Shown here piece after piece: positions 17,421 to 62,762 of a stretch of DNA of 64,000 nt (within the stretch, counting starts at the first letter, position 1; every line of letters begins with the position of its first letter). The DNA lies in contig JAFWNM010000032.1 of assembly GCA_017510335.1 (NCBI GenBank), positions 1 through 64,000 of the forward strand, in the 5' to 3' direction. This DNA comes from Paracoccaceae bacterium. Its GTDB lineage: Bacteria > Pseudomonadota > Alphaproteobacteria > Rhodobacterales > Rhodobacteraceae. Position numbers and translations under genes: made by a program. A model generated the notes under the pieces. The model made no database searches and had not been told where the DNA came from. It worked only from the letters and a program-made list of their open reading frames with translations.

Positions 17421-17536
17421 GCGCGTCATCTCCTTGCCCCGGGGGGCACATCTTTTGCCCCGACGGGCGACAAACCATAATCGCACCCACGGGCGCAACG
17501 CGCTGGTGGATGGCGATCTTTGCACATAGGCAAAGA

Positions 17537-61448: not shown

Positions 61449-62084
61449 ATGACCCGCGCCCACCTGCCCGGCATCATTGCCATGGCGGCGATTGTCGTCG
61501 CATCCAATATCCTTGTTCAATTCCTGTTCGGAAACTGGCTGACTTGGGGGGCTTTCACCTACCCGCTGGCGTTTCTGGTCAATGACGTGATGAACCGCGT
61601 CTATGGCCCGCAGGCCGCGCGCCGCGTGGTCTGGGTCGGTTTCGCTGTGGGCGTTGCCTGTTCGCTGATCGGCACGCAGATTGTCGGGGAATATGGCCCG
61701 CTTGTAACACTGCGTATCGCGCTGGGGTCGGGCATCGCGTTCCTGACCGCGCAACTGGTCGATGTGGCCATATTCGACCGCCTGCGCGAAGACAAACACG
61801 GCGGCCCATGGTGGCGCGCGCCGCTGGCATCCACACTTGTGGGGTCCACATTGGACACTGCCTTATTTTTCAGCATCGCCTTCTCGGCATCATTGGCGTT
61901 TGTCGAACCCGGCAATGATGTGTCATGGGCCGGTGAAATTCTGCCTATGCTGGGGTTTGGGCCTGAAGTGCCGCTATGGGTCAGCCTGGCTGTCGCGGAT
62001 TGGGGCGTGAAACTGGGGCTGGCGTTGCTGGCTTTGGTGCCATTCAGGGTCATTGTCAGGAAAATATCGCAACCTGTCGCATAA
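61449..62084 (+). CDS. Queuosine precursor transporter (YhhQ/VUT family)
   Basis: A 211-residue membrane protein with six helices. FTYPLAFLVNDVMNRVYGPQAARR is the conserved VUT/YhhQ segment, and the final pairs (WGVKLGLALLALVPF) fit. YhhQ imports preQ0/preQ1 for queuosine in tRNA. The start ATG at 61449 has only weak Shine-Dalgarno sequence. The next promoter begins seven bases after its stop. Confidence 0.88.
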   Translation: MTRAHLPGIIAMAAIVVASNILVQFLFGNWLTWGAFTYPLAFLVNDVMNRVYGPQAARRVVWVGFAVGVACSLIGTQIVGEYGPLVTLRIALGSGIAFLTAQLVDVAIFDRLREDKHGGPWWRAPLASTLVGSTLDTALFFSIAFSASLAFVEPGNDVSWAGEILPMLGFGPEVPLWVSLAVADWGVKLGLALLALVPFRVIVRKISQPVA

Positions 62085-62090
62085 TTTCTT

Positions 62091-62119
62091 TTGACAAACA
62101 CAAAATATGTGCCACCATC
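62091..62119 (+). promoter_or_regulatory. Promoter for the small transcript upstream of arfB
   Basis: A perfect TTGACA (62091-62096), then 17 bp and ACCATC (62114-62119). The -35 is full consensus; the -10 is weak. Transcription would start near 62126, just before the extreme ribosome site. Confidence 0.45.
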
Positions 62120-62138
62120 CCCTTAACCGCAACGCAAT

Positions 62139-62155
62139 GAAAGGAGGTGATCCAG
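62139..62155 (+). promoter_or_regulatory. Extreme Shine-Dalgarno sequence (17-nt match to anti-16S 3' end)
   Basis: GAAAGGAGGTGATCCAG is complementary along its full length to the usual alphaproteobacterial 16S rRNA 3' end (...CTGGATCACCTCCTTTC). Normal sites use 4-7 of these bases. GGAGG stands seven bases from the GTG at 62155. Confidence 0.8.
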
Positions 62156-62211
62156 TGTCTAGAGTGATGTTGGAGAGAGGTGCAAAGACAGTCAAAGGGG
62201 GCAAAACCTGA
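62155..62211 (+). CDS. 18-codon small ORF with GTG start, possible leader peptide or regulatory mRNA
   Basis: From GTG at 62155 the frame encodes an 18-residue basic peptide (starts M/V-S-R-V-M-L-E-R-G-A, ends KGGKT) and stops at TGA-C (62209-62211). In the same frame the sequence stays open for 24 more codons, with three Trp, to TAG at 62284-62286, right at the terminator stem. TGA followed by C is a leaky stop context. An in-frame ATG at 62137 exists but would put the ribosome site inside the gene. I know no named family. It lies just before arfB, a ribosome-rescue gene. It may be a true microprotein, a readthrough product or an sRNA that uses the site to bind 30S. Confidence 0.5.
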   Translation: MSRVMLERGAKTVKGGKT

Positions 62212-62284
62212 CGGCAGCCCCGATGGGGACACCCTTTTGATTGGGCCAATGCTCTAACTTGGCTCCATCTCCTGAAGCTCGTTT

Positions 62285-62312
62285 AGGGCCGCCTTGTTTC
62301 AGGCGGCCCTTT
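62285..62312 (+). terminator. Terminator or attenuator before arfB
   Basis: A 9-bp perfect stem (62285-62293 with 62302-62310), 8-nt loop, followed by TTT. It ends the small transcript or attenuates readthrough into arfB, which starts 34 bp on. Confidence 0.65.
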
Positions 62313-62345: not shown

Positions 62346-62762
62346 ATGCGCATCAATGACGACATCACCTTGCAGGATTGGGAACTGACCGAATCCTTCA
62401 CCCGCGCATCAGGGCCGGGGGGGCAGAATGTGAACAAGGTTTCCACTGCCGTAGAGCTGCGGTTCGAGGCCGAACGCAGCCCGAACCTGCCCGCACCCGT
62501 AAAAGCACGCCTGAAACGGCTTGCAGGGCGGCGCTGGACACAGGATGGCGCCCTTGTTCTGCGCGTGGAAGACACGCGGTCACAGGCGCGCAACCGCGAA
62601 ATCGCCCGCACAAGACTGGCAGAACTGATCTGTCAGGCGGCAACCCGCCCCAAACCCCGCATCGGCACACGGCCGACACTGGCCAGCAAACGCCGCCGCC
62701 TTGAAAGCAAAGCCCATCGCGCCGATATCAAGGCGCTGCGCAGCACGCCCAGACCGGACTGA
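62346..62762 (+). CDS. arfB: Alternative ribosome-rescue factor B (peptidyl-tRNA hydrolase ArfB/YaeJ)
   Basis: A 138-residue release-factor-like protein with GPGGQNVNKVSTAVELRF (GGQ at residues 25-27) and a basic, unstructured C-terminal tail (KPRIGTRPTLASKRRRLESKAHR) that enters the empty mRNA channel of stalled ribosomes. It releases peptides on non-stop complexes, backing up tmRNA. Its start has almost no Shine-Dalgarno, in contrast to the small ORF before it, so its translation may be low or coupled. Confidence 0.94.
   Translation: MRINDDITLQDWELTESFTRASGPGGQNVNKVSTAVELRFEAERSPNLPAPVKARLKRLAGRRWTQDGALVLRVEDTRSQARNREIARTRLAELICQAATRPKPRIGTRPTLASKRRRLESKAHRADIKALRSTPRPD

Follow-up and report, generated by a model that had tools for sequence, protein, structure and literature searches.

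A candidate structured RNA of Rhodobacterales with a near-complete complement of the 16S rRNA tail and a short reading frame

In the genome of a Paracoccaceae bacterium, the space between two protein-coding genes carries 17 nt that could pair with the 3' end of 16S rRNA along their entire length, at the very start of a reading frame of 18 codons, which raises the question of what an RNA with such a site would do, and whether it serves the gene next to it. We studied this locus in a stretch of 64,000 nt (contig JAFWNM010000032.1, positions 1 to 64,000; hereafter the window). The original prediction had described a small transcription unit marked by a TTGACA element, the 16S complement, the short open reading frame (ORF) and a hairpin, all of which were reproduced from the sequence by direct reading and with a script (Table 1). 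The GTG start codon comes immediately after 16 nt of complement and adds, with its initial G, the 17th complementary nucleotide. Upstream, a Vut_1 gene, which we take to be yhhQ, ends at 62084; downstream, an arfB-like gene with a Pfam RF-1 domain, presumably arfB itself, starts at 62346. Our overall reading, to which we give about an even chance, is that the whole element is an independent, structured RNA of roughly 180 nt that represents, in Rhodobacterales, a design shared by RNAs of many alphaproteobacteria.

Table 1. Features of the element in the window, with the basis of each assignment.
Feature	Positions	Strand	Basis
-35-like element, TTGACA	62091..62096	+	sequence
Short 5' leader with AAC element (GCAACGCAAT), just 5' of the Shine-Dalgarno	62129..62138	+	AAC enrichment
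17-nt complement of the 16S rRNA 3' end, GAAAGGAGGTGATCCAG	62139..62155	+	sequence, same-genus 16S
Steadier core of the 16S complement, GAAAGGAGGTG	62139-62149	+	kept in synteny-found loci
P1a, 5' strand, GGAGGTG (Shine-Dalgarno core)	62143..62149	+	pairing count
H1, 5' strand, TCCAGTGTC, contains start codon	62151..62159	+	pairing count
18-codon ORF, GTG start, VSRVMLERGAKTVKGGKT*	62155..62211	+	translation; frame kept in other loci
H1, 3' strand, GATGTTGGA	62166..62174	+	pairing count
P2, 5' strand, A1 columns 50-57	62179..62186	+	covariation
P3, 5' strand, CAGTCAAAGGG	62189..62199	+	covariation
P3, 3' strand, CCTTTTGATTG	62233..62243	+	covariation
P2, 3' strand, A1 columns 160-167	62258..62265	+	covariation
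P1a, 3' strand, CATCTCC	62266..62272	+	pairs with Shine-Dalgarno
Intrinsic-terminator-like hairpin	62285..62310	+	predicted fold; recurrence in other loci

A search for the 16S gene gave no match in this draft assembly. In a genome of the same genus (L207), the 16S 3' end reads ...CGGCTGGATCACCTCCTTTCTAAGG, and thus all 17 nt of the window complement can pair; the predicted match is exact against this same-genus 16S, the organism's own 16S being absent from the draft. The predicted duplex has an energy of -35.0 kcal/mol, and with the same L207 tail the mean is about -32 kcal/mol in Rhodobacterales-type and other loci alike. A chance origin of the match was rejected on the uniqueness of the 14-mer AAGGAGGTGRTCCA, which occurs once in the 3.6-Mb assembly, and on the finding of one site for the 17-mer with up to three mismatches in the window against 0.08 expected. 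The 11-mer GAAAGGAGGTG occurs twice in the assembly, and its reversed control once.

Conservation beyond the source strain, the lack of which would have counted against the original prediction, was found in genomes of the same genus, family and class. Of 37 same-genus genomes, 34 gave a match to a 281-nt query, the source genome included; besides the latter, 32 matches had 83-93% identity over the matched stretch and one spanned just 54 nt. With a 251-nt query, matches were obtained in 113 of 149 family genomes, many of them spanning only ~44 nt around the Shine-Dalgarno. The exact 21-nt pattern was present in at least 120 stretches across genome contigs, with Methylobacterium, Brevundimonas, Azospirillum, Sphingomonas and Donghicola, that is five orders, among the matches listed. 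In a sample of the class, a 20-nt pattern occurred within one mismatch in 75 of 385 genomes, the reversed-pattern control giving none among the matches listed for the same 385; in a sample of the phylum, the pattern was found in 76 of 398 genomes and its reverse in 2 of 398. Counted from the result rows, the phylum matches comprised 76 of 135 alphaproteobacterial genomes and none of 263 genomes of other Pseudomonadota. Across these lineages a common design recurs: an AAC leader, GAAAGGAGGUG plus an extension, a start codon, a frame of mostly 14-35 codons, and a terminator. Among the class genomes matching the pattern, 74 of 75 have a single copy. One genome of the same class (G048, family f13) has two copies of the block, whose extensions differ. 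Among the matches listed for the exact 21-nt pattern, the only one labelled as another phylum is a Gemmatimonadota metagenome bin (L101; E 0.041 with Rfam family RF01867, discussed below), which may reflect a binning error or a chance match. For the comparisons that follow, loci were divided into a Rhodobacterales type and others according to the sequence of the body and irrespective of taxonomy. In the "other" group, yhhQ precedes the RNA at four loci, which probably belong to divergent Rhodobacterales.

Since most loci were found by the motif, its invariance among them is circular. We therefore ran a motif-free test, a search for the yhhQ protein in 26 genomes (20 of the 36 family genomes without a 251-nt match, and 6 further genomes), of which 23 had no match, one had the 54-nt match and two matched the 251-nt query. 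yhhQ was found in 20 of the 26, and 19 loci could be evaluated. The core, as (G/A)AAAGGAGGTG, was located 53-93 nt behind the yhhQ match in 12 of these 19 loci, and was missing in the remaining 7. In all 12 loci with a core, a start codon lies 14-16 nt behind its first base. The ORF has exactly 18 codons in 10 of them and 23 and 25 in the other two; the 18-codon frame is retained also in the synteny-found loci with changed spacing, four in number. The extension of the complement beyond the core (ATCCAG in the window) had at least 3 mismatches in 6 of the 12. Invariance of the whole 16-nt block was therefore rejected, the extension being often altered or shortened in synteny-found loci that hold the core; the full 17 nt vary more than the core, the start codon and the length of the frame.

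The flanks of the block are also shared. An AAC is found at most 14 nt 5' of the Shine-Dalgarno in 92.5% of thinned Rhodobacterales-type loci (n=40) and in 97% of the others (n=96), compared with 26% and 14%, respectively, in nearby control windows. TTGNMN occurs upstream in 34 of 40 and 43 of 96 of these loci, as raw counts without a control. Among thinned loci, 39 of 40 of the Rhodobacterales type and 92 of 96 others have a hairpin with a T-rich tail between +95 and +235, control stretches giving 13/40, 22/39, 29/91 and 24/93. In the window, the terminator-like hairpin has a predicted energy of -21.3 kcal/mol (62283-62312) and its weak point is the short T run that follows (TTTCGATT); it was not among the terminators called in a scan of the window. 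A promoter scan found no full sigma-70 promoter, and we infer the position of a -10 element and of the transcription start. As a whole, the RNA folds only mildly better than shuffled sequences (z -1.96; 7 of 200 shuffles as good). Elsewhere in the window, a match to Rfam RF01793 (ffh sRNA; 17476-17527, minus strand, 61.9 bits) was the sole RNA family match at gathering level.

The reading frame is a constant part of the design. In all 229 unique loci with the block at up to two mismatches, a start codon stands right behind the 16 nt (GTG in 185, ATG in 43, TTG in 1), and no stop follows for 14-59 codons; open lengths in the remaining two frames vary widely, down to 0-1 codons. We compared the other group, of which 96 of 124 loci were left after thinning, with 100 dinucleotide-shuffled sets: at least 14 codons were open in 96 of 96 loci (shuffled mean 70.9, best set 81), and the frame was 14-35 codons long in 94 of 96 (best shuffled set 39). 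The stop codon precedes the hairpin, with 5 nt of leeway, in 92 of 92 thinned other loci, and at a locus with 19% GC the frame is open for 27 codons. In Rhodobacterales the stop may be TGA, TAG or TAA, in the same alignment column in many rows. These comparisons indicate that the short reading frame is under selection. The peptide itself shows a different picture. Pairwise divergence among 37 Rhodobacterales sequences is 5.36/5.66/5.96 over the three codon positions, with hardly any third-position excess; the synonymous share is 0.338 in the ORF frame and 0.268 and 0.246 in the other frames, and a GAG codon is invariant. Peptides are alike within groups (MSRVILERGVGTVRG.., MSHCHxPRSS..TWIVAS..) and unlike between groups, and the letters that they share coincide in part with RNA helices. 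Judged by these patterns, the peptide is weakly constrained and the constraint is mostly at the RNA level; translation as such, or the site where the ribosome stops, may weigh more than the peptide.

Some loci depart from this scheme in their ORF or body. L136 (Azospirillum sp. B21) and L214 have the same initiation block with ORFs of 59 and 56 codons, and their peptides start like a secreted protein (MSHGA..LLTAG.A..), unlike those of the remaining thinned loci. In ATG-type loci (among them L082, L094 and L154), a GGRGCAGCCY-like element was seen by eye near the end of the ORF, and in Rhodobacterales it comes after the stop codon; since the reading frames differ, or the element sits past the stop, it looks RNA-level. 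In six Bradyrhizobium-type loci (L112, L119, L125, L126, L153 and L155) the ORF ends in KRCHLAGIAR, with 14 codons where counted, and the nearly fixed body includes CACCTCGCTGGGATC, a stretch that looks like the 3' end of 16S rRNA itself.

The fold of the Rhodobacterales form was analyzed in an alignment (A1) of 53 sequences from 56 thinned Rhodobacterales-type ones, L074, L084 and L163 being omitted for their divergent bodies. Terminator pairs were left uncounted in A1 because several rows end inside the terminator, and P1a was counted by script because its 3' element is one column out of register in some rows. P1a joins the Shine-Dalgarno core to the 3' element, which mostly reads CAUCUCC: 7 of 7 pairs can form in 51 of 53 sequences, against 0 of 53 with a control window, the element being taken as the best of a 26-nt stretch in both cases; the 3' element shows 32 pair-preserving versus 2 pair-breaking substitutions, and P1a is paired in the minimum-energy fold of the window RNA. 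For H1, the hairpin that encloses the start codon, 98.1% of cells over the 53 sequences are paired (slid controls, 36-48%), and the helix is so nearly invariant that covariation is uninformative for it. P2 is paired in 94.0% of cells, with both-sided changes in 4 of 6 pairs and 0 of 500 shuffles as high; in the window sequence itself, 4 of the 6 pairs can be formed, by eye. P3 has both-sided changes in 9 of 11 pairs, amounting to 58 both-sided cells versus 23.3 in shuffles (0 of 500 as high; counted together with a helix P1b, which adds none), and its score halves on sliding by one column. By this measure P2 and P3 covary in Rhodobacterales. The four helices are mutually compatible, save one base common to P1a and P2 in some sequences. 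H1 and P1a were also considered as mutually exclusive states, and constrained folds gave their coexistence. The helix P1b (columns 41-44 with 155-159) is 97.6% paired, yet it was dropped because it shows one-sided changes only, overlaps H1 and crosses the better supported P2.

Left unconstrained, RNAalifold gives a consensus with H1 and P2 in which the Shine-Dalgarno pairs with an arm of the terminator; P1a and P3 are missing from it. The arm pairing (A1 columns 17-21 with 195-199; in the window, 62146-62150 with the terminator 5' arm) forms in 94.3% of cells, has a both-sided change in 1 of 5 pairs and is equalled by 16 of 500 shuffles; it would be an alternative, antiterminator-like state. 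Predicted accessibility separates the two groups. In Rhodobacterales (n=40), the probability of being unpaired is 0.14 for the Shine-Dalgarno and 0.13 for the start codon, versus 0.38 and 0.44 with shuffled bodies; in other orders (n=96) it is 0.40 and 0.46, versus 0.34 and 0.42 in shuffles. A longest-run test in Rhodobacterales gave a milder result, at least 8 pairs in 80% of loci and in 29% of shuffles, with a median empirical p of 0.20 and 20% of the 40 loci at p 0.05. Alignments made by hand had suggested sequestration in all orders, and an earlier analysis of 40 of 105 Rhodobacterales-type and 60 of 124 other loci gave a mild signal (median z of -1.7 and -1.4). Sequestration of the Shine-Dalgarno throughout the class was rejected, the accessibility test being unsupportive outside Rhodobacterales, and thus the fold part of our model applies to Rhodobacterales only. 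A closing helix beside the terminator in all orders was likewise set aside: it is visible by eye in many lineages, but its energy was better than the shuffled mean by over 3 kcal/mol in just 29% of 120 loci. The predicted cost of exposing the 17 nt in the window RNA is about 10 kcal/mol in ensemble energy, versus about -35 for the duplex, both calculated for naked RNA. On these estimates an ordinary site of 4-7 bp would hardly open the Rhodobacterales fold, and a long 16S match could.

Searches with Rfam models relate the element to CC2171 (RF01867), an sRNA of Caulobacter under which Rfam covers part of the design. The window matches the RF01867 model from its first to its last position with 33.4 bits (E 1.2e-5; the gathering score is 75), and at the gathering threshold RF01867 has no match in the window. 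The alignment runs through the 5' block, which is identical in the two (GAAAGGAGGUGAUCCAGUGUCU), and the terminal hairpin; both RNAs have a CAAC-like leader and a G+C-rich 3' terminal hairpin. They differ in that the closing helix of CC2171 beside the terminator (CAUUGUC/GACAAUG) falls in model positions that are mostly gaps in the window match, and in that the window body is unalignable to CC2171, P1a, H1, P2 and P3 being Rhodobacterales features. Among 18 diverse non-Rhodobacterales loci, 9 score above the RF01867 gathering threshold, and those above the cut-off likewise carry the short ORF; Rfam files CC2171 as an sRNA, and the available description and passages make no mention of an ORF. 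In the class sample, 13 of 385 genomes are above the cut-off and 85 match at E 0.001, and among 14 control genomes Caulobacter vibrioides alone matches. Of the 85, 16 are absent from the pattern list: 11 have the block with up to two mismatches, 2 have it with changed spacing, and the other 3 matches (one per genome), which have no block, are probably false. Some other genomes have second, weak RF01867 matches. In the available text, the family is mentioned in one row of a table of the Rfam 15 paper (PMC11701678) and as entry MH_s33 in a Mesorhizobium list (PMC5596092); the accessible parts of the open-licence literature, subscription journals being outside its scope, yielded nothing on the function of CC2171. 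According to the accessible part of one source (PMC5988900), CrfA was the only one among the 27 RNAs from Landt et al. 2008 to have been characterised by 2018. This RNA was not found in the available sections of PMC11005374 and PMC12559287, from which no Caulobacter R number could be assigned, and those of a S. meliloti sRNA survey and a Caulobacter cell-cycle ncRNA paper held nothing useful on it. The window RNA is a divergent relative of CC2171 and not a curated member of its family. Common descent of the two appears likely from their sequences, though not proved: the 16S block alone could be of convergent origin, whereas 16S does not dictate the AAC leader, the length of the frame, the terminator or the UC that follows the start codon.

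Type I toxin mRNAs have a short ORF and an initiation site governed by mRNA folding, and the window RNA is similar in both respects. They encode a hydrophobic peptide; VSRVMLERGAKTVKGGKT, in contrast, does not look hydrophobic by eye. Such toxin mRNAs with a sequestered Shine-Dalgarno are described in the accessible part of PMC6733600. According to the available text of PMC10117765, rnTrpL/peTrpL of Sinorhizobium is also a small RNA with a very short ORF and a role at the RNA level; it is leaderless, begins with AUG and is the trpE attenuator, in contrast to the window RNA with its extreme Shine-Dalgarno and no fixed downstream gene. Of 54 translated sORFs newly identified in S. meliloti, 33% sit on annotated sRNAs according to the same text, which by analogy fits the idea of a small mRNA. 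In Staphylococcus aureus, extended Shine-Dalgarno sites likewise exceed the canonical helix towards the start codon, by two extra pairs and in ordinary mRNAs as far as the accessible part of PMC13009471 shows, whereas in the window as many as 17 pairs could form right next to the start codon, in one small RNA.

The neighbourhood bears on the proposal that the RNA controls arfB. In 98 of 103 Rhodobacterales-type loci and 4 of 121 others, yhhQ ends no more than 250 nt upstream of the RNA; arfB begins no more than 600 nt downstream in 74 of 99 and 3 of 113, respectively. In 7 of the 25 Rhodobacterales-type loci (of 99) that have no arfB within 600 nt, the gene is 0.7-2.9 kb off. Outside Rhodobacterales, the next ORF, called naively, is on the same strand in 51 loci and on the opposite one in 66 (117 loci), and the largest cluster of like neighbours has 4 members. 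Comparison of loci thus indicates that the RNA is a unit independent of its neighbour genes. The original prediction had proposed conservation and synteny with arfB as a check: the RNA is conserved, and the synteny is incomplete in Rhodobacterales and not kept in other orders. Its first interpretation keeps the conserved, near-complete 16S match and the layout of a transcription unit, and loses control of arfB by attenuation. An arfB leader or attenuator, as it had proposed, would agree with the co-directional arfB that follows it in the window, with an arfB at most 600 nt away at three quarters of the Rhodobacterales-type loci (74/99), and with the Shine-Dalgarno/terminator-arm pairing, a potential antiterminator present in 94.3% of cells. 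We consider it very improbable, given the 25 of 99 RNA-bearing loci without a near arfB, the 3 of 113 with one in other orders, the steadier association with yhhQ, and an antiterminator-like pairing that shows a both-sided change in one pair and is matched by 16 of 500 shuffles.

The reading that we prefer, and that we judge evenly balanced, is a small RNA that is both structured and translated, and that needs ribosome binding to determine how it folds. Comparison across loci bears out the complement, the frame, P2, P3, the terminator-like end and the independence from neighbours, and pairing counts bear out P1a and H1; from these we infer transcription, translation and a competition between fold and ribosome. 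The element would be an independent structured RNA of ~180 nt and probably also a small messenger. In Rhodobacterales, the 3' element (mostly CAUCUCC) would pair with the Shine-Dalgarno and a hairpin would hold the start codon; a 30S subunit would land on an unpaired GAAA and then displace the fold through the long complementarity. With free 30S available the RNA would be translated, and with 30S scarce it would refold, so that the availability of ribosomes would set how the RNA folds, how long it lasts and any effect that it has in trans.

Several other readings draw on the same features. Tight ribosome binding is possible, and with it a role as sponge or as ribosome sensor. As a sponge or 30S-protecting RNA, it would pair with the whole 16S tail and use the ORF merely as a release path. 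The strong duplex with the L207 tail in both groups (mean about -32 kcal/mol) agrees with this, and so does the single copy in 74 of 75 pattern-matching class genomes, which means that a sponge would act as one dedicated RNA. A pure trap, however, could do without an ORF, and 96 of 96 thinned loci of the other group retain the frame; a single gene would titrate ribosomes only if expressed very highly, and in Rhodobacterales the site is predicted to be largely paired. We regard this reading as doubtful. About as doubtful is a sensor in which the competition between the RNA fold and the 16S tail reports the level of free 30S and acts in trans. The RNA would be either open and translated or closed and stable, with a trans output on ribosome or growth control, in the manner of a riboswitch whose ligand is the ribosome and whose output is other than the next gene. 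Its basis is fold evidence from Rhodobacterales only, and evidence on initiation site and ORF from the whole class.

The element might also be a plain small-protein gene, whose product is the peptide of mostly 14-35 residues and whose folding sets the dose only. The selected ORF, the strong initiation region with its AAC leader and the likeness of peptides within groups speak for it; the differences between groups, the near lack of a third-position excess, the invariant GAG codon and the shared letters that fall partly in RNA helices make it unlikely. Alternatively, the anti-Shine-Dalgarno-like CAUCUCC could block other mRNAs when the RNA is free of ribosomes, making it a trans-acting sRNA. 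This pyrimidine-rich 3' element is conserved, and the available text of PMC12559287 describes an anti-Shine-Dalgarno motif common to the Caulobacter sRNAs SisA-D; the predicted fold, however, pairs the element with the RNA's own Shine-Dalgarno, and we find this quite unlikely.

The preferred reading, a translated RNA that folds according to ribosome binding, concerns a design that is present in many alphaproteobacteria and is filed, if at all, as an sRNA, and that has a selected short frame behind a start site able to pair with almost all of the free 16S tail. If it is translated, this would alter what the CC2171 family is, and if its state tracks the supply of ribosomes, the RNA would be a simple measure of translation capacity.
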